From a virus: a stretch of 46,937 bases of DNA. The DNA lies in IMG/VR virus record IMGVR_UViG_3300036760_000182, positions 1 through 46,937 of that record. One strand, given 5' to 3'. A model generated the notes under the pieces. That model made no database searches, was not told the DNA's origin, and worked only from the letters and a program-made list of their open reading frames with translations. Positions 2,729-42,960 of the stretch are shown piece after piece; position 1 is the first letter of the stretch, and each line of letters opens with the position of its first letter. The position numbers and the translations under genes are program-made.

Positions 2729-4423
2729 ATGCCAATCTCTCTAACTAATGGTATTGAAAGTAAAGATCCCGGTAATGGCTTTCAAGAAGATTATATTCGT
2801 GACAAGAATATTAAACCACATGCTGTTCAAGAACAATTACTAACTCTTCCAGATCAAATCTTTGAGGCTCTTTATGGAGGAGCCGCCTACGGTGGGAAGA
2901 GCTGGATATTAACATTACTTCCACTATTTAGAGGTTTTTATAAGTTCAGAGGATATAAAGGAATTATCTTCCGTCGTAAGTTTCCAGATCTCGAACGTGA
3001 GATTATACGTCTAAGTAAAGAATACTATCCAAAAACAGGAGCTAAATATAATGAACAAAAGCATAGCTGGGAATGGCCAGAGTTTAATTCCTATCAGGAT
3101 TTTGGTCATGTACAGCATGATTCTGATATTGTTATGTATGACTCTTCCCAGTATAACTATTGTGCATTCGACGAGCTTACTCATTTTTCTGCCCATCCTT
3201 ATCATTATATGGTTGGTAGCCGCGTTCGTCCTAGTAGTTCATTTAATGTAGCTATTGCTCGAAGTGGAACTAATCCTGGTGGGATTGGACAGACATTTGT
3301 TTATAATAGATTTGTACGACCATATGAAGATGGTTTAAAAGTTATACGTGATACATCTACTGGACTTCTCCGTATATTTATACCCGCGAAAGCGGAGGAT
3401 AATCCTTATGGAATGGAATATGATCCATTATATGTTAAGAAACTTGAGATACTAAAAGCAGTTTCTGAGGCTGAGTATAGAGCAAAGAGATATGGAGATT
3501 GGCACGCCTATAAAGGATCTGTATTTACAACTTTTAGACCTATACGATTTCCGGGCGAGCCAGATAGTGCATTGCATGTTATTAAACGGTTTCAGATACC
3601 TGAATTATGGCCTCGTATTCTGTCAATAGATTGGGGTAAAAAAGCAATGTGTTATGCAATGTGGGGAGCCGTTGCTCCAAATCATAAAGTTTATATTTAC
3701 AGAGAGCGTGCTTGGTATGGAAGAGATATCCCTTATTGGGCTAGTGAAATAAGATTGATTCATAATGAGAATAATGAAACTCCAGTTCATACAGTATTAT
3801 GTGGTAGTGCATGGCAGAGTAGAGGTGGAGAGTTAATTGCTGATGAGTTCCAGAAGTATTCAGACTTGGTTCCAAGTAGCTCAGAAAACACTCCGGGAAG
3901 CCGCGTAGCAGGCTTGCAATTGATTCATGATTTTCTAAGATGGGAGAAGAAGACTTCTCTCATATCAAAAGAGAAATTTTATGATATGCAAATAGCTCAA
4001 GAGATATATAGAAATTATGGACCAGCAGCTCTAGAGAATTATAAGAAGAAATTTTATGATGAGTCTGATGAAGATAATCTTCCTATTTTACAAATTTTTG
4101 AGAATTGTAAAATTCTAATTGATACAATTCCAATGTGTATATATGATGATAAAAAGATTGAAGACATTGCTGAATTTGAAGGAGATGATCCAATAGATGA
4201 TCTTCGTTACTTTTGTAAAGCAGCTAAGAGATTCATTGCTGGAGAAATAGGTCATCTTGATATTGCCTCTAAGAAACAAGAGGCTATTGATCATTTACAA
4301 GTGAGTGGAGATATGACTTCTTTTTATCGCCAAATGGAGATGATAGAGAAACAAGATATGACAACATTAAATGATTGCATTCCTGTCAGTAGAAGAAGTC
4401 GCTTTGCAAGGTTAAGACACTAA
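2729..4423 (+). CDS. terL: Terminase large subunit
   Basis: 564 residues. The ATPase domain has a Walker A-like GGAAYGGKS (50-58) and Walker B CAFDE (145-149). The C-terminal nuclease domain starts with ILSIDWG near residue 298, where the Asp is expected to bind metal. The protein drives packaging of DNA through the portal. Its last codons carry the first copy of a 15-bp repeat whose second copy follows the homing endonuclease gene. Removing the insert would change only the last residues, from SRFARLRH to SRFARRMH, so the present C-terminus seems to be a by-product of the insertion. Confidence 0.95.
   Translation: MPISLTNGIESKDPGNGFQEDYIRDKNIKPHAVQEQLLTLPDQIFEALYGGAAYGGKSWILTLLPLFRGFYKFRGYKGIIFRRKFPDLEREIIRLSKEYYPKTGAKYNEQKHSWEWPEFNSYQDFGHVQHDSDIVMYDSSQYNYCAFDELTHFSAHPYHYMVGSRVRPSSSFNVAIARSGTNPGGIGQTFVYNRFVRPYEDGLKVIRDTSTGLLRIFIPAKAEDNPYGMEYDPLYVKKLEILKAVSEAEYRAKRYGDWHAYKGSVFTTFRPIRFPGEPDSALHVIKRFQIPELWPRILSIDWGKKAMCYAMWGAVAPNHKVYIYRERAWYGRDIPYWASEIRLIHNENNETPVHTVLCGSAWQSRGGELIADEFQKYSDLVPSSSENTPGSRVAGLQLIHDFLRWEKKTSLISKEKFYDMQIAQEIYRNYGPAALENYKKKFYDESDEDNLPILQIFENCKILIDTIPMCIYDDKKIEDIAEFEGDDPIDDLRYFCKAAKRFIAGEIGHLDIASKKQEAIDHLQVSGDMTSFYRQMEMIEKQDMTTLNDCIPVSRRSRFARLRH
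4397..4411. repeat. Left copy of 15-bp direct repeat around endonuclease gene 1
   Basis: AGTCGCTTTGCAAGG occurs here inside the last terminase codons and again at 4985-4999. The distance is 588 bp, a multiple of three. Its AAGG lies 11 nt before the endonuclease ATG and may serve as its ribosome binding site. Confidence 0.9.
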
Positions 4424-4986
4424 TGAAAGCTATAAAAAATATTTCTTGGTTGGCAGGTATATTAGAGGGAGAAGGTTCATTTTCTTGTGATGATAATGGA
4501 ACTAATGCTGTAATAAAAGTAGGTATGACTGATAAAGATGTTATTGAGAAAGTAGCTATGGTAGTAAATTATAATGGTAAAATATGTGAACAAGCGCGTG
4601 AAGGATTTAAAATTATGTATATAGTTCAATTATATGGTAATGAAGCTATTCAATGGATGATGACCATTTATAGTTTAATGGGAATTAGGAGAAAAGAGAA
4701 AATTAAATCTATTTTAATTTTATGGAGAGAATATGAAAGAAAATATAGAACAGTTTGTTTACGTGGTCATGAAGTAGTTGGAGATAATGCATACTTAGCT
4801 CCAGGAGACACTAATAATTTTAAATGTAAAGAATGCTTAAGCATTGCTAGCAAGAAAGCTTATGCAAAACATATTTCTACTGAAGGAAAGCAAAAGTCTA
4901 TTGAGAAGATGTTAGCAAAATTACATAATATTAGTATAAATGAAGCTAGAAAACTTATTGAAAATGATAAAAATAATGTTCATTAG
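4423..4986 (+). CDS. LAGLIDADG homing endonuclease 1, free-standing
   Basis: 187 residues. The N-terminus ISWLAGILEGEGSF (about 7-20) is the LAGLIDADG helix with the acidic residue of the active site; only one clear copy is present, so it would work as a homodimer. The C-terminus has a zinc module CLRGH ... CKEC followed by basic helices. The ATG overlaps the terminase stop (TAATG). It lies between the two copies of a 15-bp repeat, so it is an intergenic insertion, not an intron gene. It is more AT-rich than the terminase gene. Confidence 0.9.
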   Translation: MKAIKNISWLAGILEGEGSFSCDDNGTNAVIKVGMTDKDVIEKVAMVVNYNGKICEQAREGFKIMYIVQLYGNEAIQWMMTIYSLMGIRRKEKIKSILILWREYERKYRTVCLRGHEVVGDNAYLAPGDTNNFKCKECLSIASKKAYAKHISTEGKQKSIEKMLAKLHNISINEARKLIENDKNNVH

Positions 4987-4999
4987 TCGCTTTGCAAGG
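4985..4999. repeat. Right copy of 15-bp direct repeat around endonuclease gene 1
   Basis: Second copy of AGTCGCTTTGCAAGG. Reading on in the terminase frame gives an alternative terminase end with TGA at 5009-5011, overlapping the TTG start of the next gene as TTGA. This is the likely arrangement before the insertion. The AAGGAG here serves the gene at 5008. Confidence 0.9.
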
Positions 5000-5007
5000 A
5001 GAATGCA

Positions 5008-5358
5008 TTGATTAGATTCATCTGTTTTCTCCTCGGCCGTCCTTATGAGACTTGCAAGTCATGTGAGACATTAAAAGAGCAACTAGCAATAGCTAACGAG
5101 GATAGACAACGGCTTACTGATACACTATTAAATATAATTAAGCCTAAAGAATACGAAGCTCCTCCTATAGAGATGAATCAAATTGCTCAAAGTTCTGCGT
5201 TGTTTTCACGCCGTCGTGCAGCTTTAGAAGCAAGAGATAGACAAGAAGCCCAAATATTATCTGAGAAGAAACATTTAGGTGTTCCTGATAAACTTAGAGA
5301 TATTTCTGTAGAAGGTTTAGAAAAAGAACTTGGTGTCGAAGAAAAAGAAGGAGCTTGA
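5008..5358 (+). CDS. Small CxxC coiled-coil phage protein
   Basis: 116 residues, TTG start with AAGGAG 6 nt upstream. The N-terminus is hydrophobic (FICFLLGRPY) and followed by CKSC, then a Glu/Lys/Arg-rich helical stretch that could be a coiled coil. A membrane-anchored or head-completion role is possible; no family is recognised. It originally followed the terminase gene directly. Confidence 0.75.
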   Translation: MIRFICFLLGRPYETCKSCETLKEQLAIANEDRQRLTDTLLNIIKPKEYEAPPIEMNQIAQSSALFSRRRAALEARDRQEAQILSEKKHLGVPDKLRDISVEGLEKELGVEEKEGA

Positions 5359-5361
5359 AGA

Positions 5362-5595
5362 ATGCCAAACACATCACCGGCTACTGTAACAATAACTGAG
5401 ACTACTGGACCAGGATTATCTGTTAGTGCATTGAAACTTACTGATGTTGTAGGTATTGAAGTTGATTTTTTTAGAAATTGGTTGAAAGTAACGCGAGATG
5501 GTGCTGGTGGTATTCAATATTATGATTATTCAGCTCTTGCAACATTAACGTGGACTGTTTCTGGTGGCGTTACTACAATAGTTCTCTCTACGTAG
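5362..5595 (+). CDS. Small beta protein, paralogue A
   Basis: 77 residues, GGAG upstream. The last 50 residues (IEVDFFRNWLKVT ... ATLTWTVSGGVTTIVLS) align by eye with the next gene, so the two are tandem paralogues. Probably a minor virion protein; function unknown. Confidence 0.7.
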   Translation: MPNTSPATVTITETTGPGLSVSALKLTDVVGIEVDFFRNWLKVTRDGAGGIQYYDYSALATLTWTVSGGVTTIVLST

Positions 5596-5617
5596 TGTAG
5601 AAGTAGTGTAGAAGTAG
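5593..5617. repeat. Tandem 11-bp repeat after a stop codon
   Basis: Two units of TAGTGTAGAAG plus TAG start at the stop codon of the preceding gene. The same 25 bases occur in reverse complement at 43526-43550, again just after a TAG stop. Because 11 is not a multiple of three, the repeat places TAG in several frames. Confidence 0.8.
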
Positions 5618-5620
5618 AAC

Positions 5621-5857
5621 ATGCCAACAACTCCAGCTATCACAGCTACTGTTAAGATTACTGCAAAAGATATCAATGGAAATAATATAGCTAAACAGTT
5701 CGACTCTGTTTCATTTTTATTCTTTGATTATAATAAAGGTATGGTTCAAGTTACTGATGTTACAGGACAATTTTATTTCTCTCTTACTGCAATAACAACC
5801 CTGACTTATGTAATCGTTAGCGGCGTCGGTGGTGTTACCACTGTAGTGATGAGTTAA
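5621..5857 (+). CDS. Small beta protein, paralogue B
   Basis: 78 residues. VSFLFFDYNKGMVQVT and TLTYVIVSG..GGVTTVVMS correspond to segments of the preceding gene. The spacer between the two genes is filled by the 11-bp repeat, and no ordinary Shine-Dalgarno is visible unless AGAAG in that repeat acts as one. Confidence 0.7.
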   Translation: MPTTPAITATVKITAKDINGNNIAKQFDSVSFLFFDYNKGMVQVTDVTGQFYFSLTAITTLTYVIVSGVGGVTTVVMS

Positions 5858-5861
5858 TATT

Positions 5862-6152
5862 ATGTTTAGTTCCAGTTCTAGCTTAGCAGTTTCTGAAAGT
5901 CCTAAACATGAGCCTAATAGACATAAGAGTAGTGGTCTCTTTAGAAGTAGCAAACAGCATATAGTAGAGAAGAAGATGTTTGGTAAGAAGTTTAAAGGAA
6001 AAGGTAAAGGAATGAAATCTCATTTTTCTGGAGATATGAAGTCTTCTGGGATCTCACCTAGTGTAGAAGAATTTGATAATATGATGTCGAAGATTAGTGG
6101 TTCTAGAAGTAATAAGAAGAAATCTATGTTCTCACGTAAGTCCTTTGGTTAG
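5862..6152 (+). CDS. Basic Ser/Lys-rich protein
   Basis: 96 residues, low complexity: Ser clusters at both ends and a central GKKFKGKGKGMK. No cysteine and no recognised domain. A nucleic-acid-binding or internal head role would fit the charge, but this is only inference from composition. The next small gene ends in a similar motif (KKRSMFTKK against KKSMFSRK). Confidence 0.65.
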   Translation: MFSSSSSLAVSESPKHEPNRHKSSGLFRSSKQHIVEKKMFGKKFKGKGKGMKSHFSGDMKSSGISPSVEEFDNMMSKISGSRSNKKKSMFSRKSFG

Positions 6153-6154
6153 AA

Positions 6155-6313
6155 ATGCCAGCCGTTAGCGGTCGTCAATATAAATTCATGCAAGCTATGA
6201 GGAGTGGAGCTAAGCCATATGGTGGTGGTGTTGGACCTAGTAAATCTGTTGCTGAAGAATTTATTCACAAGACACCTAAAAAGAAAAGATCAATGTTCAC
6301 GAAGAAAAAATAA
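6155..6313 (+). CDS. 52-residue DUF3008-like phage protein
   Basis: Short gene starting MPAVSGRQYKFMQAM. The pattern MPAxSxxQxxFM is typical of a small phage family (DUF3008-like) found near portal genes. The C-terminus is Lys-rich (PKKKRSMFTKKK). The stop TAA overlaps the ATG of endonuclease gene 2. Before insertion of that gene it would have been immediately upstream of the portal gene. Confidence 0.7.
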   Translation: MPAVSGRQYKFMQAMRSGAKPYGGGVGPSKSVAEEFIHKTPKKKRSMFTKKK

Positions 6314-6825
6314 TGCCTACAGAAATTGAGATTGCTTGGTTGGCAGGTCTACTAGAAGGTGAGGGATGCTTTATGATTCAGCATCATGCCTCACCTAGTA
6401 TTCAGTTATCTATGACTGATTTAGATGTTGTAATTAAAGCAGCTAAAATTATGGAAATTAGTTTAGATAGAATTCATCCTAAAAGAGATAATCAACCTAA
6501 TCATAAACCATGTTATGTTCTCAGATGTGATGGTCCAGAGGCTTTTATTTGGATGAGAGCTATTAGACCACATATGGGAGATAGGAGGGGAGCTAAAATA
6601 GATGAAGTTATATCTACTGTAAAAGCTGCTCGTCCTCATATCGATAAAGGGAGAGATGTTTGTCGTAAAGGTCATAGTATTAAATATTCATATGAATACT
6701 ATGTTGGTTCAAGTGGTCAAAGACAATGTAAGAGATGTCTAGGAGTTACCCCAAGACAAAAGACTATAATTAAAAGTAATAATATAAAATTAATCAGTCC
6801 TTTTAATAAGGGAAAGATTGCATAA
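6313..6825 (+). CDS. LAGLIDADG homing endonuclease 2, free-standing
   Basis: 170 residues. IAWLAGLLEGEGCF (about 7-20) is the LAGLIDADG helix. The C-terminal zinc module is CRKGHSIKYSYEYY ... CKRC. Similar in layout to the gene at 4423. It overlaps both neighbours by one base (TAATG on each side) and lies just before the portal gene. No flanking duplication was found here. Confidence 0.9.
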   Translation: MPTEIEIAWLAGLLEGEGCFMIQHHASPSIQLSMTDLDVVIKAAKIMEISLDRIHPKRDNQPNHKPCYVLRCDGPEAFIWMRAIRPHMGDRRGAKIDEVISTVKAARPHIDKGRDVCRKGHSIKYSYEYYVGSSGQRQCKRCLGVTPRQKTIIKSNNIKLISPFNKGKIA

Positions 6826-9440
6826 TGAAAAATGATTTTGATGAAGACATTGCTACATTATTAAAAACAGTTAGTGATCATTTCATTCTGGAAGATCGCA
6901 TGACCAGAGAAAGGCAAATACGTCATTGGAGAAGACTCAAGCTTTACTGGAATAACTTCTCTCAAATTTATTGGTCAGAGGTGGCTCATGATTACAGGAT
7001 CTACAACAGGGACATCAATGCTACTGATACAGACCAAGACTATTATGATAAACCTATCAACGTCTTCAAAGCCTTTCTGGAAACTATTATTGCAGCCTTA
7101 TCAATACAAATTCCAGCAATAAACTGTGTTCCTGATGATGCAGAGAATCCTCTTGATGCACTAACAGCTAAGGCTGGAGATAAGATATCTGAACTAGTCT
7201 ATAAACATAATAATGTAATGTTTTTGTGGCTACATGCTCTTTATATTTATTGCACTGAGGGTATGATTGCTTGTTATAGTTATCCAAAAGAAGATAAATC
7301 TTATGGAACATATGATAAGCCTAAATATAAGGATGAAGAAATAAATGCTTATGTATGTCCTCAATGTGGTGCTAGACAGCCAGATGAACAATTCTCTGAA
7401 AATGAGTTATATGAATTTGCTCCAGGAGATGATGATGTTGATATTAAGAATACTCTACTTGGAAATAGTTCATCCTTACTAAACACAGATTTAGGTCCCT
7501 GCTCAAATTGCTCTATGTTCTTAGCAGATGAACAACGCTGTACTATTCATCAGCCTAATGATGAGATTAAGCCAGAAGATACGTGTGATTATCATGAAAC
7601 AGGCCCTGTAGGAAGCGATGGAAGTTATCCTCGTGGTGAAACTAATAAAGAAGAATCTAACTACCGTCCATACAACGCTGCCGAAGGTAATGAAGAAAAA
7701 GGAGGACCAATCTGCTTTGAGTGTGGAGCAAGATTAGATCCTGAGCTAAAAAAGACTAAACTTGTTATTCCACGTCTTGTAGGAACAACGAAAGAACCAA
7801 AATCTAGAATTTGTCTAGAAGTTTATGGTGGATTATATATTAAAGTTTCTAATACTGCTAAAGTACAAGAAGATACACCATATCTAATATATTCATATGA
7901 AACTCACTATGCTAATGCTTTGGAGTGCTATCCAAACTTAAGAGAGAAAATTCCTCATGGAGGATGGTCTAATGTTGGAGTTAATGATCCTTATGAACAA
8001 TATGGAAGACTGAACACACAATATCGTGGTGAATTTCCAGAAGAGAATGTAACAGTTAAGAATTGTTGGCTCCGCTGCGCGGCATTCAACGTGTTATCAG
8101 AAGAAGATTATAAGAAGTTAAAGAAGAGATTTCCCGATGGAGCTAAGTTTGTAATGGTTAATGATATTCCTGCAGAGTATGAAAATGAGTCATTAGATGA
8201 TCATTGGACATTAACTGAGAATCCTATGTCTGACTTCTTAAACCATGATCCTCTAGGAGAATTGTTAACAAACATTCAGGATATTACTAATGATCTTATC
8301 TCACTAACTCTACAAACAATTGAACATGGAATTGCTCAGACTTATGCTGACCCAGCCGTTGTCAACTTTAATGCTCAACGTCAAATAGAGGCAATGCCTG
8401 GAACAATAACTCCTACTAAACCAGTATCAGGCACTAGAAATATTAGCGAGTCTTTTTATACATCGAAAACGGCTTCGTTATCTCCTGAAGTATTTAATTT
8501 TTATAGAATTATACAAGAACTTGGGCAGTTTGTTTCTGGTGCTCTTCCATCTATATTTGGTGGTAGTCAAGGTGCTGGAAGTTCTAGAACAGCATCTGAG
8601 TATGCAATGTCTAAAGGTATGGCTCTACAAAGATTACAGACTCCATATAGGATGTTGACTATTTGGTGGAAGGAAATATTTAGTAAGGTTATACCAATGT
8701 ATATGAAAGAAATGAAAGAAGATGAGAGAGTAGTTGAGAAGAATGAACAAGGTAACTTTGTTAATGTCTTTATTCGAAAAGCCGAATTAGATGGCAAGAT
8801 AGGATCTATAGAACTTGAACCAGATGAAAAACTTCCAGTCTCTGATGAGCAACAAGCTGATATGATAATGCAGTTATTTACACTAAATAATCAAGAGATT
8901 ACAGCCGCTCTAATGGACCCAGATAATCTACCATATATTGCTAAGGTAATTAAGATTCCACAATTTAAACTTCCTGGATTGGATGACAGGCAGAAACAGT
9001 ATGAGGAAATTGTTGAACTAGTTAATTCAGCTCCTATTCCTCCATCACAAGAAGAAATTCAACAATATCAATTAGCTATCCAACAAGGACAACAAGTTTC
9101 ACCACCTGAAGAAAAGCCTTCAGTTGAAATTGATGTAGATGTAGATAATCATCAAATTGAGGCTTCTATTTGTAAATCTTGGCTTATCTCTAGTGCAGGA
9201 CGATTGGCAAAACAAGAGAATCTTAATGGATATAAAAATGTCTTATTGCATATGAAAGCACATATGGCTATTGTTAATCAACAGATGCAAGCTCAGCAAA
9301 TGCATGAAGATCAAATAAGATTAGCTACTAGTGCTGAAACTAAAAAAATCGGTGAGCCCTCTGACCGTGTTCAACCTCCAAAGGCGAAACAAAGTCAGAA
9401 AATAACTGGAGAAAGAAATGCCAATACCCCAGTCTTCTAG
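6825..9440 (+). CDS. Portal protein with Cys-rich insertion
   Basis: 871 residues. It follows the terminase region and precedes scaffold and capsid genes, the usual place of a portal. Typical portal features include long helices, the region LGELLTNIQDITNDL and the SSRTASEYAMSKG segment, and an acidic/Gln-rich C-terminal part. An insertion at about residues 175-310 carries CPQC, CSNC, a single Cys pair and CFEC, which look like zinc ribbons, with acidic linkers between. The protein forms the ring through which DNA enters and leaves the head and, in podoviruses, ejects the DNA. AAGGGA precedes the start. Confidence 0.85.
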   Translation: MKNDFDEDIATLLKTVSDHFILEDRMTRERQIRHWRRLKLYWNNFSQIYWSEVAHDYRIYNRDINATDTDQDYYDKPINVFKAFLETIIAALSIQIPAINCVPDDAENPLDALTAKAGDKISELVYKHNNVMFLWLHALYIYCTEGMIACYSYPKEDKSYGTYDKPKYKDEEINAYVCPQCGARQPDEQFSENELYEFAPGDDDVDIKNTLLGNSSSLLNTDLGPCSNCSMFLADEQRCTIHQPNDEIKPEDTCDYHETGPVGSDGSYPRGETNKEESNYRPYNAAEGNEEKGGPICFECGARLDPELKKTKLVIPRLVGTTKEPKSRICLEVYGGLYIKVSNTAKVQEDTPYLIYSYETHYANALECYPNLREKIPHGGWSNVGVNDPYEQYGRLNTQYRGEFPEENVTVKNCWLRCAAFNVLSEEDYKKLKKRFPDGAKFVMVNDIPAEYENESLDDHWTLTENPMSDFLNHDPLGELLTNIQDITNDLISLTLQTIEHGIAQTYADPAVVNFNAQRQIEAMPGTITPTKPVSGTRNISESFYTSKTASLSPEVFNFYRIIQELGQFVSGALPSIFGGSQGAGSSRTASEYAMSKGMALQRLQTPYRMLTIWWKEIFSKVIPMYMKEMKEDERVVEKNEQGNFVNVFIRKAELDGKIGSIELEPDEKLPVSDEQQADMIMQLFTLNNQEITAALMDPDNLPYIAKVIKIPQFKLPGLDDRQKQYEEIVELVNSAPIPPSQEEIQQYQLAIQQGQQVSPPEEKPSVEIDVDVDNHQIEASICKSWLISSAGRLAKQENLNGYKNVLLHMKAHMAIVNQQMQAQQMHEDQIRLATSAETKKIGEPSDRVQPPKAKQSQKITGERNANTPVF

Positions 9441-11958: not shown

Positions 11959-12420
11959 ATGGTAACTATTAGAGAAATAGCTTGGGCCGCTGGAGTTTAC
12001 GAAGGAGAGGGTAGCTTCAGCGGTGACCGAGTAGTAATAGTTCAGAAAGATTCTTGGATATTATATAGATTAATTAAAATATTCAAATTTGGAAGTGTAA
12101 GATTACATGGTGATAACTGTCAGAAATGGTGCGTCTCTGGTGAAGATGCTCGTCAATTTCTCCTAACTATATTTACTGAGCTATCTCCCAGAAGAAAAGC
12201 TGAGATACTGGAGCATAAAGTATTCTTTATTGATAGTAAATTTAAACAGCAAAGAGTATGTAGAAATGGCCATATTAAGACCGAAGAAAATACTAGGCGC
12301 AAGTATAATCATCGCAGAAAAGATTGGGATGTTATCTGTTTGGATTGTCAAACAGATAGGCTCAGAAGAGCTTGGAGAGTGAAGAAAATGATAATCCAAA
12401 GGAGAACATCTAATGTCTGA
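11959..12420 (+). CDS. LAGLIDADG homing endonuclease 3, free-standing
   Basis: 153 residues. EIAWAAGVYEGEGSF near the N-terminus is a diverged LAGLIDADG helix. The C-terminal zinc module is CRNGH ... CLDC, followed by RLRRAWRVKK. It is smaller than the other two and lies between the capsid gene and a small virion gene, with an 8-nt overlap into the latter. No good Shine-Dalgarno is seen before its ATG. Confidence 0.87.
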   Translation: MVTIREIAWAAGVYEGEGSFSGDRVVIVQKDSWILYRLIKIFKFGSVRLHGDNCQKWCVSGEDARQFLLTIFTELSPRRKAEILEHKVFFIDSKFKQQRVCRNGHIKTEENTRRKYNHRRKDWDVICLDCQTDRLRRAWRVKKMIIQRRTSNV

Positions 12421-18182: not shown

Positions 18183-19148
18183 ATGGGAACATTCACAATA
18201 ATACCAGATTCTTTCTCCATTAGTGGTGGAACATTTCGAGATAACACTTCTGCTGGTGTGTATGGAGCTCTGACTTTAGCCACTGTTCTCTCTAACAATA
18301 TTATCTCAGGGGGTCCTCCACCATTTCCTCAAGCTATAAATAGTTTTGCTGGAGCTGGAGTTCTAACAGAGGATGCCATTCTTCGATTAGGGTTTAGTTT
18401 AGTTGGAAACATTATTAGTTTAGATGGTAATCCTGCTATTAGTTTTGCAGGTCTTCCTTCTGGATTTACGATAATTAGTGCTCTTATCAGCATATACACG
18501 ACGAACAATGGTTCTGATGTAACTAATCATTTTAGGGTCACATTCGATACTTCAGTAGAATCTGGAGATTTAAACTTCATCAATCCCCGGACGTTTGCAT
18601 ATCCGGGAGTACTACCTTCAACATTACTATTTTTCCTTCAAGGATGCGGAATTCATGTTAATAATCTTACTGTTGGACAGCAAACATCACGATGGTTTGG
18701 TAACTATAAAGTTACTGGAACTTATATTATAGTTAGTACTAACTGGACTCTGCCATTATCAAGTATTAAAGCTGGAGATAAAGTAACTCTTACTAGCGTT
18801 TCTCCATTAGCGCAGGGAGTTACTCAAGTTCTAATTCAACATTCTGGTCAGACTACTGAGATAGCTGCACAAGATTTTCTTGAACAAACTCCGACTTTTA
18901 TTACATTTTACATGCCAGAGTTTGGGAACTATAATGGCCCTGTAACTGTAACAGTAGTAGGAAATGGTGTTCAATTCTCTGGATCAGTTCTAATAGGAAA
19001 TTTAACAGTAGCATTTGTTGATGCTTCTGGTATTTACGTTCTAACTCCTCTTAAACCAACTGATACTGTCTATGATAGAACTACTCCTGGAGCTACTGTA
19101 GATGTAGCCATACAAGACCCAACAATTGAGACAGCATTTCTTCCATAA
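18183..19148 (+). CDS. Tail protein with Ig/TIG-like C-terminal region
   Basis: 321 residues, AAGGTG before the start. Beta-rich throughout. The stretch KAGDKVTLTSVSPLAQGVTQ to GPVTVTVVGNGVQFSG (about 197-275) has the pattern of an Ig-like TIG/IPT domain. It overlaps the next gene by one base (TAATG). Tail or fibre attachment role inferred. Confidence 0.6.
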   Translation: MGTFTIIPDSFSISGGTFRDNTSAGVYGALTLATVLSNNIISGGPPPFPQAINSFAGAGVLTEDAILRLGFSLVGNIISLDGNPAISFAGLPSGFTIISALISIYTTNNGSDVTNHFRVTFDTSVESGDLNFINPRTFAYPGVLPSTLLFFLQGCGIHVNNLTVGQQTSRWFGNYKVTGTYIIVSTNWTLPLSSIKAGDKVTLTSVSPLAQGVTQVLIQHSGQTTEIAAQDFLEQTPTFITFYMPEFGNYNGPVTVTVVGNGVQFSGSVLIGNLTVAFVDASGIYVLTPLKPTDTVYDRTTPGATVDVAIQDPTIETAFLP

Positions 19149-19450
19149 TGGCAAGACGTTCTTCCAGTTCTAGAGGAGAAGAAACAGTAAATCATTATGG
19201 TCTAATAAGACTACGTGTTAATGGAGCTGGAAATCTTCGGATGACTCTATATAGCTTAGATAAGGTTGAGTCAGACGTTCAGACTCCACTTGTTTTGCAG
19301 AGTTTAACTAATATAGAACCAACTGTGTTGTCTAATTTCACACAGCAAAGATCTAAACTACAGATTAAAACTACTGGTATAGGTGAGACTTTTCAAATTT
19401 CAAAAATTATTATCTTTGTTAAGCCAGTAGCGAAGTCGCTCCCACAGTAA
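19148..19450 (+). CDS. Small tail protein, unknown
   Basis: 100 residues, coupled to both neighbours by TAATG. The N-terminus is basic and Ser-rich (ARRSSSSRGEE), followed by beta strands (LIRLRVNGAGNLRMTLYSL). Unrecognised; likely part of the tail. Confidence 0.65.
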   Translation: MARRSSSSRGEETVNHYGLIRLRVNGAGNLRMTLYSLDKVESDVQTPLVLQSLTNIEPTVLSNFTQQRSKLQIKTTGIGETFQISKIIIFVKPVAKSLPQ

Positions 19451-35357: not shown

Positions 35358-35734
35358 GACATCGGCTTGAAATCAACTACGTCATTAAATTCGTTACCTT
35401 TGTTACTCTTACCACGCTTGGTATAAATCATCAGTTTATGTCCAACAGTCTGCTCAAATAGCTGAGTTGAAAGTTCATATCCCTTAACTGGATCATATGG
35501 AAAAGCTAGTGTCTTCCACAGAGACTTACCAAAGCCTAGAGCTTTCTCATTAAACAGCTTCTGACAGATAACTCCTTTACCAGGACCATCAATAATCTTA
35601 AAATAGAATAAACAGTTAGTAGACTGGTCTGTCTCTGCCTCTTTCTCCTTATATTCTACGATTTCAGATGGATGCCAGGTGGTTTCCACTAGGTCTCCAC
35701 GCTTAAGGTCGTCGGGGGTTAAAATTGCTCTCAT
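35354..35734 (-). CDS. Probable ssDNA-binding protein, DUF669-like
   Basis: 126 residues. KRGDLVETTWHPSEIVEY, LFYFKIIDGPGKGVICQKLF and GKSNKGNEFNDVVDFKP match the strand pattern of phage DUF669-type proteins that lie next to Sak4-like ATPases. It would coat ssDNA in annealing or replication. Separated from the Sak4-like gene only by an inserted HNH gene. OB fold inferred. Confidence 0.5.
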   Translation of the reverse strand: MRAILTPDDLKRGDLVETTWHPSEIVEYKEKEAETDQSTNCLFYFKIIDGPGKGVICQKLFNEKALGFGKSLWKTLAFPYDPVKGYELSTQLFEQTVGHKLMIYTKRGKSNKGNEFNDVVDFKPMS

Positions 35735-36204
35735 GGTTTTTGCCTTCTTTTTTGGTTGATTGTGTTTTTGTGTTTATTGTAGTGTTTGTTTCTAGCTATC
35801 CTAGCACATTCTCTACACTTTAATCTCTTACTAGTATCTAATCTATGTCTTCTTGTGATATATCCATGTATTTTTAAGGAATGACCACTTTTGCAATATT
35901 TTCTAGATTCTCTATAATCTCTACCATTATCAGATTGAGTACCTACATACAAACAGTTTGGGTTCCAACAATTTCTATATTTACATATTAATTTATGTAA
36001 TGCATTTAGTATAGGACTATCTAAATCTAATTCTAAATGAATATAAGCAGATAACCTATGCACTCCATAATGATTACCATCTTCTCTACTACCTACCCAT
36101 AGCATTCCATATCCTTGACTAGTTCTTCCCATCCATAACCAATGACCATCTTCGCTTATGATCGTATTGGCCCACAATCTGGATAGAACTTCTTCTTTAT
36201 TCAA
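35731..36204 (-). CDS. HNH homing endonuclease 1, free-standing
   Basis: 157 residues, TTG start right after the Sak4-like stop. NUMOD-like start GHWLWMGRTSQGYGMLWVG, then HRLSAYIHLE, ALHKLICKYRNCWNPNCLYVGTQSDN which is the HNH core (His, His, Asn and a Cys site). The C-terminus has the zinc module CKSGH ... CREC shared with the LAGLIDADG genes of this genome. It overlaps the next gene by ATGA. Inserted between the ATPase gene and the ssDNA-binding gene. Confidence 0.88.
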   Translation of the reverse strand: MNKEEVLSRLWANTIISEDGHWLWMGRTSQGYGMLWVGSREDGNHYGVHRLSAYIHLELDLDSPILNALHKLICKYRNCWNPNCLYVGTQSDNGRDYRESRKYCKSGHSLKIHGYITRRHRLDTSKRLKCRECARIARNKHYNKHKNTINQKRRQKP

Positions 36205-36205
36205 T

Positions 36206-37066
36206 CTACGTTTTCCAGGTTTGTGTTGTTGGTTGAGTGAATGGATTTGCTATTCTAGCAGCTAATTCTTCTTCAGTTAATTCTTTCTTAGGTTCAATAT
36301 CTCTACTCTTGTCAGCAAGTTCTTTCCATACAGTATAGAATAGCTTATTAGTAATATCAAATTCTTTAGGAATATCTAATGCAGTTTTAGCAAAATCATC
36401 TCCAACCATATCAGTTAATACTATTCTTCTATTTGTATTATCATTATAATCGACTCTACGTGCAAAGTGATATATTTCATTAAAATAGCCTGGGACTATT
36501 GCTCCAACTTTCTGACCATAACTCACAATAGATGTAACTTTACTTACAATCATACTACTTCCAGAGCCAGACATGCTTAAACTAGGAAGTGGGTGAGCTG
36601 TTAGGATTATATGACATGGAAGCATCTTCATTATATCTAATGCTTGACTAACTAATGAAGTCTCCACTTTATAGGCGTCAAAATCTGGAATAAGATTTGG
36701 TTCATTTGATTTTCTTACTTTAGATCCTCTAAATCCTAATGACCAATTTATAGCACTGGCTGTGAGACTCGTTACTGAGTCTGTTATAATTGCTGTATAA
36801 CGACAATCTTTAGTAAATCCTATTAGTTTATTAAGGAACTCATTCGCATTGTGACTAGAATATGTATCATAATTAACATTATCTAAAAGTTCCGGACAAT
36901 ATTTCTTAAAATATGTTAACACTGGAAGCATCCTACCATCAAAATCAAATACATATATTGGACCCTCTACTGCAAATGTACAAGCACTAATAGTTTTACC
37001 CATACCATTAGCTCCTTTAAGGAGCATTGATATATTCTTACTTGGTATTAATTGACTGAGCTTCAT
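36206..37066 (-). CDS. Sak4-like RecA-fold ATPase
   Basis: 286 residues. Walker A is GANGMGKT (18-25), Walker B is AIITDS (about 93-98), with DFDGR after the first helix as in AAA_24 proteins. Sak4 and related ATPases assist annealing and recombination of phage ssDNA, usually beside an SSB, which matches the gene at 35354. The C-terminus is NPFTQPTTQTWKT. Good ribosome binding site AGGAGGAAGAA before ATG. Confidence 0.8.
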   Translation of the reverse strand: MKLSQLIPSKNISMLLKGANGMGKTISACTFAVEGPIYVFDFDGRMLPVLTYFKKYCPELLDNVNYDTYSSHNANEFLNKLIGFTKDCRYTAIITDSVTSLTASAINWSLGFRGSKVRKSNEPNLIPDFDAYKVETSLVSQALDIMKMLPCHIILTAHPLPSLSMSGSGSSMIVSKVTSIVSYGQKVGAIVPGYFNEIYHFARRVDYNDNTNRRIVLTDMVGDDFAKTALDIPKEFDITNKLFYTVWKELADKSRDIEPKKELTEEELAARIANPFTQPTTQTWKT

Positions 37067-37494
37067 TTCTTCCTCCTTCTCTCATTGTAACAGTTAGCAC
37101 AATATCTTGTCCATGTAGTCTTACTAGTATTTCTATTTATTTGTTTATGTTTTCTGTATGGAAATTTACATTTAGGACAAACTTCTTTACTTGCATTATA
37201 ATGTGTTCCAGCCTTAATAGAATCATATGTGTTGTCTGAATCAGAGCCAGGTATAATATGTTCTGGATTAAAACAAGAACCATTATTACATTTGTGTCTT
37301 GCTATTATTTTCTTATCATCATAATTTATATCACTCCACAAACACATAACTAATCTACTCAATAAGAATCTATTACCATTTATTTTTATTCGTATATTAT
37401 GACAGGTTTCAGGAATATAATTTGATATCCAACAACCATTAGAATTTATAGTTTTAGGAATTAAATCAATAAATTCTTTAGTTATTAATATCAT
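37063..37494 (-). CDS. HNH homing endonuclease 2, free-standing
   Basis: 143 residues. GCWISNYIPE, FLLSRLVMCLW and IARHKCNNGSCFNPEHIIPGSDSDN give the HNH core. The C-terminal zinc module is CPKC ... CANC. It lies between the poly-Asp gene and the Sak4-like gene. The sequence GAGGAAGAAAT (ribosome binding site plus start) occurs just before it and again at its end, before the Sak4-like start. Confidence 0.87.
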   Translation of the reverse strand: MILITKEFIDLIPKTINSNGCWISNYIPETCHNIRIKINGNRFLLSRLVMCLWSDINYDDKKIIARHKCNNGSCFNPEHIIPGSDSDNTYDSIKAGTHYNASKEVCPKCKFPYRKHKQINRNTSKTTWTRYCANCYNERRRKK

Positions 37495-37505
37495 ATTTCT
37501 TCCTC
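37491..37505. repeat. Duplicated ribosome binding site/start context, copy 1
   Basis: TCATATTTCTTCCTC here is identical to 37678-37692; on the minus strand it reads GAGGAAGAAATATGA, the start region of HNH gene 2 and of the poly-Asp gene. A shorter version lies at 37063-37076 before the Sak4-like gene. Confidence 0.8.
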
Positions 37506-37513
37506 ACTTTTCA

Positions 37514-37681
37514 CTAGCTTGGAAATTCGTCTGGTTCTCTTATATCTCTTGCACTATCTTCTCCTTTTTCATAATCATTTTCGTCTTCATCATCTTCATC
37601 GTCATCATTTTCATCATTTTCATCTTCCAAATCTTCATCATCATCGTCATCATCATCATCGTCATCATCAGAAATTCTCAT
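37514..37681 (-). CDS. Hyperacidic 55-residue poly-Asp protein
   Basis: Starts MRIS followed by 11 Asp residues, then Glu/Asp/Asn repeats and the end REPDEFPS. 35 of 55 residues are Asp or Glu (24 and 11), with only four Lys/Arg. The ATG overlaps the stop of the previous gene (ATGA) and GAGGAAGAA is at the right distance. A DNA mimic or an acidic tail that binds SSB partners is possible; no family known to me. The GAT repeats make the length prone to change. Confidence 0.7.
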   Translation of the reverse strand: MRISDDDDDDDDDDDEDLEDENDENDDDEDDEDENDYEKGEDSARDIREPDEFPS

Positions 37682-37692
37682 ATTTCTTCCTC
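37678..37692. repeat. Duplicated ribosome binding site/start context, copy 2
   Basis: Second exact copy of the 15-nt sequence at 37491-37505. It gives the poly-Asp gene its ribosome binding site inside the end of the previous gene. Confidence 0.8.
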
Positions 37693-38118
37693 TTCTTGTT
37701 TTTGTTTTTGATGGATTGTTTGTTCAAGACGTTCTGATAGTGAAAGTTCTGCTGGTTTATCACTGTACATTCCTACTAATCCATTAATAATAGAGTCCTT
37801 CATATATTCTCCCATATCTCTAGTATCAGTTTCTTTTTTAGGCTTATGGCAATTATTGCAATGAGGTTTTGATAAACGAATAGAATATTCATTCATTACA
37901 AAAGATTCCCCACAACGCCAACAGATTGACCTTTTTCCTAATACTAGAGAGATGTTAGTTTTGAATGCACAGTCTGGTAGGGCGCAGAAGAATATATCAT
38001 TCCCAGACTTATATCTTAATCTTTTTAATTTATGCACATGACTGATTTTTGGCATTGTGGCGCTCATTCTGCTTTTCGTTTTTGCATCTTCTACAGTATC
38101 TAGTTCCTCTTTTTTCAT
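37678..38118 (-). CDS. Zinc-ribbon protein, unknown
   Basis: 146 residues from the ATG at 38118, which has GGGAG 8 nt upstream; the upstream ATG at 38136 has no such signal. It contains FFCALPDC, ICWRCGESF and HCNNC, six cysteines able to bind zinc, and an acidic Gln/Glu tail. It overlaps the end of HNH gene 3 by 89 nt in another frame. Perhaps a transcription or replication cofactor; unknown. Confidence 0.65.
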   Translation of the reverse strand: MKKEELDTVEDAKTKSRMSATMPKISHVHKLKRLRYKSGNDIFFCALPDCAFKTNISLVLGKRSICWRCGESFVMNEYSIRLSKPHCNNCHKPKKETDTRDMGEYMKDSIINGLVGMYSDKPAELSLSERLEQTIHQKQKQEEEEI

Positions 38119-38488
38119 GTCTATATCTCCCACCACATTTAGGACAATTAATCTTTGCTATATTTCTATGGGTTTTGGTTATAACTAAATCCTTGGCATT
38201 ATCAGTTTGTGTACCAACGTAAACATGCTCTGAATTAAAACACGCTCTATTATTACAAAATGTTTTATGGTTAACTTGTACGCTATCATCATTTATATCT
38301 AAACCTAAATAAACTGCTGCTGATACTCTATGGAGATATATCCTTTTTCTATTTATTGTAACTTCTCCATACCCATTGTTTAAATGTCCAACATATAGCC
38401 AACATCCAATTTCATTAGTAGTTCTTGGTAGACTTAATATAAATTCTAGGGTTATTGCATTGTTTACTCTTTTTCTTTTATATTTCAT
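38030..38488 (-). CDS. HNH homing endonuclease 3, free-standing
   Basis: 152 residues. GCWLYVGHLNNGYGEVTI, HRVSAAVYLGLD and VNHKTFCNNRACFNSEHVYVGTQTDN form the HNH core. The C-terminal zinc module CPKCGGRYRHEKRG ... CRRC lies partly in the overlap with the next gene. Weak ribosome binding site. It follows a 149-bp structured spacer. Confidence 0.87.
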   Translation of the reverse strand: MKYKRKRVNNAITLEFILSLPRTTNEIGCWLYVGHLNNGYGEVTINRKRIYLHRVSAAVYLGLDINDDSVQVNHKTFCNNRACFNSEHVYVGTQTDNAKDLVITKTHRNIAKINCPKCGGRYRHEKRGTRYCRRCKNEKQNERHNAKNQSCA

Positions 38489-41123: not shown

Positions 41124-42715
41124 AGACTCCAGGCCTTTCTCCCTTTTGTTACAAGAATCTCAGCAAGCTCTTTCATCAAACTCTGCTGATTCCATTGAAT
41201 CTCTTTCTTATCCATCGTAGCCGCAACTATCGCACGTTTTATTTCAACAAGTTCAGTAAAGTATTCATCTATCGTTCCGCTGGCTAACATATAAGTTATA
41301 GACACGTTATTTAATTGACCAAATCGATGAAAACGTCCTTCAACTTGTTCTTCATTAGCTGGATTCCATTGACGCTCTAGGATAATCGCGTCGCTACAAA
41401 ATTGAAGATTAAGACCCTCTCCGGCAGCTAATGTGCTAGCAATCATCAGCCTTCGGCTGGAGTCTGATTTAAACTCTTCTACAAGCCTTGTTCTTGCATT
41501 TCCATCTAAGCCTGAATGAAGAACGCAAACCTTACCAAAATCACCCTGCATACACCATTCATTTAACTGAGATTCTAACATTCCCATTACATCTTGATGG
41601 TGTGTGAAGATTACTATCTTTCTATCTGTTGATAAGAGAAATTCAGTAGAGAAATCGATACACTCTGCTACTTTAGATATCCCGGTGATGTGTCTTAATT
41701 TAGACATGATAGCTATTGTATTAGTTGCTTTCTCAAATTCACTTTCGTCTGAATATAGCATATCATCTAACTCTTGCAGAGCCGCTGCATATGCTTTATT
41801 TAGACGCCTATCTAACTCTACGTGGTGAAATTTTCTATCTATTGAAGGAAGATCTGGCAGGACGTCGGCTTTAGTGCGACGAATTATGATATCTTTTGTA
41901 TCTTCATGAAAGCGTTCTACGTCTTTTAATCCACCTATTTTCTGTCCCCAACCATTACTATAAGCATCACAATAGTTGTCTATATATTTCTGGTAGTGTG
42001 GAAATAGTGTAGGTTTAGTCAGATTAAGAACAGTGAAATACTCTCCAGCATTGTTCTTAATTGGAGTGCCAGACATCGAAATAATGTGTTCTGTGCTCTT
42101 TGCAATCCTCTGACAAGCCTTAGCTCTATCAGAGAGATGATTTTTAATTCTCTGACATTCATCTATGATTATAGTCTTTATCATTCCTTCTGGTAAATAC
42201 TCAAATAAATTTTCTTTCTTTAACATATCATACGTAACTATATATATTTGAAATCCAGGCATTGCACGTTCTTTTCCTGATTGAATAACTTGAACTAGAA
42301 ACTTTGTATCTTTTGCTCCGTCAACACAGCAGATACGATGAATCTCAAACATCCATTGTAATTTGACTGTGGAGGGACATACGATAACGGCTGGCAGCAG
42401 CTTCGCTGGATGAAGTTTTAATAGGGATAATGCTTCTATTGTTTTACCTAAACCTTGCTCGTCAGCTATGATGCAACGAACATTTGACTCTTCTGCAAAC
42501 TTAACTGCATCTATTTGATATGGTCTTGGTTTACAGCCGTCACTAAATACTATTGAGTTGTAGTCTTGTTCTTGTGAAGCGAGAGCTTCAGAATGAAGAA
42601 TGTGACCACAAGCTAATTTGATAATTATTGTCTTTCCTATTTTTAGGCGAGACTGCTCAACGGCGATCTTTTTACAAGTAGGACATTCTTGACGGATGAT
42701 TTGAGTGAGGGCCAT
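41120..42715 (-). CDS. SNF2-type DNA helicase
   Basis: 531 residues. N-terminal zinc pair CPTC ... ACGH, then DEQGLGKT (85-92, motif I), IIDECQRIKN (motif II), SGTPIKN (motif III), VLHSGLDG, ASTLAAGEGLNLQ (motif V) and RFHRFGQ (motif VI). It resembles phage SNF2 proteins related to SMARCAL1 that remodel forks or rewind DNA. Overlaps both neighbours by 1-4 nt. Confidence 0.92.
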   Translation of the reverse strand: MALTQIIRQECPTCKKIAVEQSRLKIGKTIIIKLACGHILHSEALASQEQDYNSIVFSDGCKPRPYQIDAVKFAEESNVRCIIADEQGLGKTIEALSLLKLHPAKLLPAVIVCPSTVKLQWMFEIHRICCVDGAKDTKFLVQVIQSGKERAMPGFQIYIVTYDMLKKENLFEYLPEGMIKTIIIDECQRIKNHLSDRAKACQRIAKSTEHIISMSGTPIKNNAGEYFTVLNLTKPTLFPHYQKYIDNYCDAYSNGWGQKIGGLKDVERFHEDTKDIIIRRTKADVLPDLPSIDRKFHHVELDRRLNKAYAAALQELDDMLYSDESEFEKATNTIAIMSKLRHITGISKVAECIDFSTEFLLSTDRKIVIFTHHQDVMGMLESQLNEWCMQGDFGKVCVLHSGLDGNARTRLVEEFKSDSSRRLMIASTLAAGEGLNLQFCSDAIILERQWNPANEEQVEGRFHRFGQLNNVSITYMLASGTIDEYFTELVEIKRAIVAATMDKKEIQWNQQSLMKELAEILVTKGRKAWSL

Positions 42716-42960
42716 TAGAGCTTTCTCTTTATTCGTCCTAATATAGATTGATAACCATCCACAACATACGCAATATGCAGCTTTCTCTCTAGGTCAAGAA
42801 GAGAAAGATAAATTGTTTCACAACAATCTGATTGCACTGCATTCTTACTAAGATTATTATCATCTAAATATAAAATAGATTGATAACCATCCACAACATA
42901 TACAATATGCAATTCTTGATGTAATCCTAACTTCTCGTGCAATTTGATTAGGTCTGTCAT
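42715..42960 (-). CDS. Small protein with internal duplication
   Basis: 81 residues. LHIVYVVDGYQSIL and LHIAYVVDGYQSIL occur at about 17-30 and 61-74. The end ILGRIKRKL shares a 20-nt identical DNA stretch with the next gene upstream (ILGRIKNK). The gene looks like a patchwork of duplicated pieces. Coupled to both neighbours. Unknown function. Confidence 0.6.
   Translation of the reverse strand: MTDLIKLHEKLGLHQELHIVYVVDGYQSILYLDDNNLSKNAVQSDCCETIYLSLLDLERKLHIAYVVDGYQSILGRIKRKL
42727..42746. repeat. 20-nt repeat CTTTATTCGTCCTAATATAG, copy 1
   Basis: Identical to 43041-43060, same strand, both in the same codon frame of their genes (ILGRIK). Suggests copying of a gene segment between neighbours. 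Confidence 0.85.

Follow-up and report, generated by a model that had tools for sequence, protein, structure and literature searches.

Among the closest described systems are the free-standing seg and mob genes of phage T4, which lie between conserved genes, with relatives that carry them and relatives that lack them, and one of which, mobE, begins within the sequence UAAUGA (PMC2988022). Homing in T4 is described as one-sided, with illegitimate joints at microhomology, and the text of this review does not use the word "duplication" (PMC2988022). In the Cluster J mycobacteriophages, LittleE gp14 is an I-CreI-related LAGLIDADG protein with a C-terminus common to HNH proteins, encoded within an intron of the capsid gene, and the HNH genes Courthouse gp46 and Omega gp51 are free-standing insertions in junctions with empty relatives. 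Complex joints have there been ascribed to repair errors or to a distantly related donor, and Omega lost 35 bp at its insertion site (PMC3706429).

Here, we describe HEG1, a LAGLIDADG gene between the terminase gene and a conserved small gene of a phage. The window, by which we mean the whole stretch of 46,937 bases that was analysed, is a phage record that is complete or almost so, and the ~216 bases at either end are nearly identical to each other (15-mers match at 1/46722, 51/46772 and 90/46811). Like the T4 genes, HEG1 is intergenic between conserved genes, with relatives on both sides of presence and absence, and like mobE it overlaps the upstream stop with its start codon; unlike the GIY-YIG and HNH enzymes of T4, it is of the LAGLIDADG type and lies in a junction of which 15 bp are duplicated. 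With the Cluster J HNH insertions it shares a junction that is empty in relatives, but 15 bp were gained here where Omega lost 35 bp. LittleE gp14 is the best annotated phage match to HEG1 (29.5%), yet it resides in an intron whereas HEG1 is free-standing. The features of the locus and the other homing-type genes are as follows.

2729..4423, plus strand: terminase large subunit, 564 aa, ending SRFARLRH-TAA (PHROG 979 terminase, E 3.4e-29; 44 viral relatives, most 63–89% identical)
4397..4411, plus strand: repeat copy 1, AGTCGCTTTGCAAGG, within the terminase 3' end
4412..4424, plus strand: terminase tail unique to copy 1, TTAAGACACTAAT, read as L-R-H-stop (from sequence; His-stop end in 32/40 relatives)
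4423..4986, plus strand: HEG1, predicted free-standing single-motif LAGLIDADG endonuclease gene, 187 aa (profiles, AlphaFold2 model, fold match)
4985..4999, plus strand: repeat copy 2, running into the ancestral junction, its first two bases used by the TAG stop of HEG1
4996..5010, plus strand: AAGGAG ribosome-binding site plus TTG start codon of the small downstream gene, both retained through copy 2
5008..5358, plus strand: conserved small downstream gene, 116 aa, TTG start (joined directly to the terminase in 27 relatives)
6313..6825, plus strand: HEG2, second LAGLIDADG gene, upstream of the portal gene, no flanking repeat
11959-12420: third LAGLIDADG gene
35731-36204, 37063-37494 and 38030-38488, minus strand: three HNH genes

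The sequence-only reading had described an exact 15-bp direct repeat around the LAGLIDADG gene at a distance of 588 bp, and this is what we found: AGTCGCTTTGCAAGG occurs exactly at 4397-4411 and 4985-4999, bracketing HEG1 (4423-4986) with a spacing of 588 bp (3 x 196). Copy 1 is continuous with the terminase gene, copy 2 with the small downstream gene. The downstream copy runs on into AGAATGCATTGATT, and AGTCGCTTTGCAAGG plus AGAATGCATTGATT yield S-R-F-A-R-R-M-H-stop, the TGA of which overlaps the TTG start at 5008; the terminase end that had been deduced by deleting one repeat unit is read directly here. Copy 1 is followed by L-R-H-stop, in the same register and of the same length as the R-M-H-stop after copy 2, and this terminase stop overlaps the HEG1 start codon (TAATG). 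The suggestion that the duplicated segment holds a ribosome-binding site also held, with AAGGAG located 6 nt before the TTG of the small gene and AAGG ~11 nt before the endonuclease ATG. Shine-Dalgarno-type motifs precede 28 of the 52 window genes (about half), compared with a background of 12%; judged by these counts, they are in use in this genome.

Repeats of 15 bp are common throughout the window (26 groups on the plus strand), and AGTCGCTTTGCAAGG is found in it only twice, even allowing up to 3 mismatches. That both borders of a single insert match in this way has an analytic expectation of ~1e-5, and 4 of 20,000 random local segment pairs from this repeat-bearing genome matched at >=15. 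At the homologous site of 40 terminase relatives, the best agreement with the 15-mer was 13/15 and the typical one 7–10/15; therefore, shared codon choice cannot explain a perfect second copy. Because the 15-mer is not conserved among the relatives, we interpret the exact second copy as a real, recent and local duplication. A chance repeat was ruled out by the two-only occurrence, the mismatches in the relatives and the random-pair test, and conserved DNA yielding two similar copies by the absence of the 15-mer from the homologous site of all 40 relatives. Elsewhere, the 15-mer is present in 31 viral contigs, none of which (0/31) encodes this terminase or the small gene.

To obtain relatives, IMG/VR was searched with the terminase, yielding 44 loci, of which the 40 with a readable terminase 3' end were aligned. 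One terminase match sits in a small contig binned as Bacteroidetes. The terminase was joined directly to the small gene in 26 of the 40, and a degenerate junction-pattern search added L139 as the only further empty site. These 27 relatives, among them L006, L026 and L038, display the single-copy empty junction that had been predicted on the assumption that the endonuclease gene is an insertion. The usual form is ...RFARR(M/V/I)H-TGA overlapping TTG, with TAATG in some relatives; stop/start overlaps of the CACTAATG type are common among them. Two patterns in relatives lacking the endonuclease had been named beforehand as speaking against an insertion, namely retention of both repeats and a terminase with an RLRH end; 0/40 relatives showed either of them. 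We regard the insertion of HEG1 between the terminase and the small gene as solidly established.

Other inserts or spacers occupy the junction in 12 relatives (L001, L004, L007, L014, L015, L017, L018, L019, L024, L025, L028 and L042), the one in L018 containing a LAGLIDADG gene of another subfamily. Among 80 related loci, genes of the HEG1 family follow directly behind the terminase in the divergent loci L152, L153, L155/156 and L198, while others lie before the portal gene, between pre-capsid and capsid genes, or elsewhere at a few fixed junctions. These recurrent fixed junctions support a site-directed movement of the HEG1 family. The right-hand joint varies: L153, L155 and probably L198 have an overlap with the small gene, L152 has an additional stretch, and the window has the duplication. 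In L153 (1388-1960) and L198 (2123-2720), the 3' end of the endonuclease gene seems to run, in a different frame, into the start of the small gene, the N-terminus of which may be newly encoded there.

If the two repeats formed a reversible cassette, recombination between them would delete HEG1 and regain it. Deletion between the repeats does restore the junction exactly, and occupancy of the terminase junction varies among relatives; however, the same 15-mer pair occurs in no relative, 15 bp is a short substrate, and the assembled record shows no mixed population. We consider such a cassette very improbable.

HEG1 is predicted to be a free-standing I-CreI-type endonuclease. Its motif reads LAGILEGEGSF, with G12, E15, G16, E17 and G18 invariant across 45 sequences; the Pfam LAGLIDADG_3 match fell just under the cut-off (E 4.7e-4), and profile matches included I-HjeMI and I-AniI (E ~1e-9). 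The AlphaFold2 model, built from the 45 related sequences, reached a pLDDT of 87.6, and its residues 1-108 aligned to I-CvuI, I-CreI and I-MsoI with Z 10.6-12.5 and rmsd 2.0-2.5 over 98-102 residues (I-CvuI: Z 12.5, rmsd 2.5 over 101 residues). HEG1 resembles these enzymes in the predicted fold and the invariant motif residues, but differs in its low identity of ~10-14%, the lack of an intron and an extra C-terminal CxxGH...CxxC segment with additional helices. Similar cysteine-bearing C-termini are predicted for the two further LAGLIDADG genes and the three HNH genes (CPKC...CRRC-like in the latter), and this 47-kb phage has six homing-type genes. No HEG1 was found in bacterial and archaeal genomes. 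A homologue of HEG2, 85% identical, occupies the same place before the portal gene in G003 (1175-1708; L087), and several relatives lack HEG2. The portal gene itself (6825-9440) contains at residues ~212-293 a cysteine-rich stretch of ~80 residues that is missing from many relatives; alignments to these skip from residue ~211 to ~294, and are continuous in others, e.g., G001, G004, G006 and G015.

The length of the 588-bp unit, divisible by three, and the restoration of the ancestral reading upon its removal would fit an intron or intein, excised after transcription or translation to give a terminase ending in RRMH. Against an intein, the TAA stop of the terminase lies 12 bases past copy 1, so that an intein is precluded. 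Against an intron, no Rfam match was found at 4000-7200; moreover, wherever a splice point is placed within the repeat, exon and intron end in the same base, contrary to the U/G rule for group I introns, and the bases at the outer edges are A and T. With its complete upstream terminase frame and border bases unlike those of a group I intron, HEG1 lies outside any intron or intein, and this reading is the least probable of those considered.

LAGLIDADG enzymes leave short overhangs, which counts against a 15-bp duplication made by a staggered cut. A transposition-like event that left a genuine 15-bp target-site duplication would nevertheless account for an exact direct repeat that directly borders the insert, and an imperfect inverted match (12/14) spans the two borders. 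The insert, however, holds HEG1 alone, with no transposase and no clear terminal inverted repeats, and homologous endonuclease insertions occur without a duplication, the HEG1-family insertions largely lacking one of 14-16 bp. Furthermore, the DNA after copy 1 is not foreign but a homologous terminase tail in register. Since copy 1 ends in a proper terminase tail (LRH-stop), it points to a donor terminase rather than to a staggered-cut target duplication, and we judge transposition improbable. On sequence evidence, transposon, intron and intein were each set aside for the HEG1 unit.

We infer instead that the duplication arose by one-sided double-strand-break repair of the terminase junction from a HEG1-bearing donor, filtered by selection; to this reading, which best explains the duplication, we assign a probability of about 0.55. 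In the putative ancestor, the terminase and the next gene would have shared TTGA, with the ribosome-binding site of the next gene inside the last terminase codons. An insertion at this place would be viable only if the terminase kept its tail and the next gene its ribosome-binding site. A break at or near the junction would have been mended from a related phage whose own terminase was followed by HEG1. Homologous repair on the left side would have copied the donor tail LRH-TAATG together with HEG1, and the tail at 4412..4424 is probably donor-derived; on the right side, an illegitimate joint would have been made to the recipient just upstream of AGTCGC. The outcome would be 15 bp of tail on both sides of HEG1, and the joint would have been retained since it leaves the start of the next gene intact. 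It is because the ribosome-binding site of the next gene lies inside the terminase tail that selection would have kept this outcome of break repair. As copy 1 retains the sequence through CAAGG and copy 2 that from AGTCGC onward, an endonuclease target destroyed in both copies would have to span the entire 15-mer and its flanks. No donor was found in which HEG1 follows a terminase with an RLRH end, a query consisting of the copy-1 tail and the HEG1 start returning four unrelated matches.

The main rival to this repair route is that the gene was gained in an ordinary way, either through illegitimate recombination or because the junction was locally duplicated in tandem, with the endonuclease as a passenger whose cutting was not involved; here too, selection would have kept the joint that leaves the tail of the terminase and the ribosome-binding site downstream of it in place. 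What speaks for it are comparable duplications around other inserts, namely an acidic ORF and HNH2 as well as a small ORF in the window and an HTH-like gene in the relative G003. Those in the window are as follows.

37678..37692, minus strand: second scar, copy 1, GAGGAAGAAATATGA, end of gene 37678-38136 (EEEI-stop)
37514..37681, minus strand: small acidic ORF, 55 aa, inside the second scar
37491..37505, minus strand: second scar, copy 2, GAGGAAGAAATATGA, start of HNH2
37063..37494, minus strand: HNH2 endonuclease gene inside the second scar
37062..37076, minus strand: second scar, copy 3, AGGAGGAAGAAATGA, end of HNH2 and start of gene 36206-37066
42715..42960, minus strand: third scar, small ORF whose 3' end carries a 21-bp copy of the 3' region of the upstream gene, before the helicase start

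The empty counterpart of the second-scar junction is present in G003 as AAGGAGGAAGAAATTTGA. The second scar provides weaker evidence than the terminase case because its motif is rich in purines and looks like a ribosome-binding site. The small ORF at 42715-42960 (minus strand) also has an internal 26-bp repeat (LHIVYVVDGYQSI / LHIAYVVDGYQSI). In G003, the gene judged HTH-like by inspection, the product of which has the C-terminus KKPMYKNPFAKK, ends in KKPMYKNPFAKKDK, a copy of KKPMYKNPFAKKENK of its upstream neighbour. In G002 (L091; ~18950-19290 of the oriented contig), an inserted gene comes after g1053, which ends GAKSY-stop, and the next gene is then preceded by a tiny ORF whose end reads EGAKSY-stop; the EGAKSY copy has two synonymous differences from the g1053 tail, and the tiny ORF is possibly an older tail duplication.

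Matches between adjacent junctions were also enriched, in favour of a passenger gain: in 17 relatives and the window, 4/520 adjacent junction pairs scored >=12, compared with 0/6,094 random pairs, although one of the four (G018) may represent similar neighbouring genes. As the gene calls were simple, this enrichment is suggestive and not final. Because like scars surround non-endonuclease genes, a self-made break is not required to explain the HEG1 scar. On the other hand, LAGLIDADG genes recur at the terminase junction in divergent loci and related ones at other fixed junctions, which points to site-directed movement. We therefore favour one-sided repair over a passenger gain, which we hold to be possible yet less probable; both include the selection step, and they differ in what made the break.

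The sequence-only reading had also taken the short duplication as a sign of unusual homing, a view that did not survive these comparisons, given the like tail duplications around non-endonuclease genes here and in a relative. We scored flanking repeats for 65 other LAGLIDADG loci and for 21 endonuclease instances in this genome and its relatives, HEG1 included, and a perfect or comparably exact 15-bp repeat flanked none of about 86 other endonuclease insertions. Among the 21 instances, HEG1 scored, HNH2 did so weakly and the rest not at all; the next best of the 65 loci were L216 and L209, at tmRNA/tRNA genes, and L201. A general habit of this endonuclease family to duplicate its site is ruled out by these 65 loci. 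In L216 (2580-2989), a LAGLIDADG gene of the same family lies directly behind the tmRNA gene, and in L209 (2896-3616) another one lies within a 29-tRNA array. L201 (2930-3500) has a LAGLIDADG gene between 11-bp repeats, and LQVQLF is encoded on either side of it by differing codons (CTTCAGGTTCAGCTGTTT / CTACAAGTACAATTGTTT), as though a gene start had been imported in recoded form. As other endonuclease insertions lack the 15-bp duplication and other insert regions have a like arrangement, it does not appear to be a homing signature.

Phage genes are tightly packed, their ends overlapping the starts of the next, and it is an open question in phage mosaicism how entire genes can enter while the phage stays viable. 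Where the ribosome-binding site of a gene B lies in the coding tail of a gene A, an insert would have to bring a new one or duplicate the tail of A, and one-sided repair would yield this duplication whenever the illegitimate joint falls upstream of the ribosome-binding site of gene B. We tentatively suggest that gene gain between overlapping phage genes may commonly duplicate the upstream tail holding the ribosome-binding site of the next gene. No report of such a tail-duplication scar was found in the literature searched, the scope of which did not extend to the older papers on boundary sequences of lambdoid phages. That a short direct repeat flanks an endonuclease gene does not by itself signify homing. 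If the suggestion is true, two junction copies would enclose an inserted gene, endonuclease or not, and recent insertions would be marked by the scar. Taken together, several like scars, one occupied site and its empty counterparts allow a rule, duplication of the upstream tail to preserve the following ribosome-binding site, to be tested across genomes.
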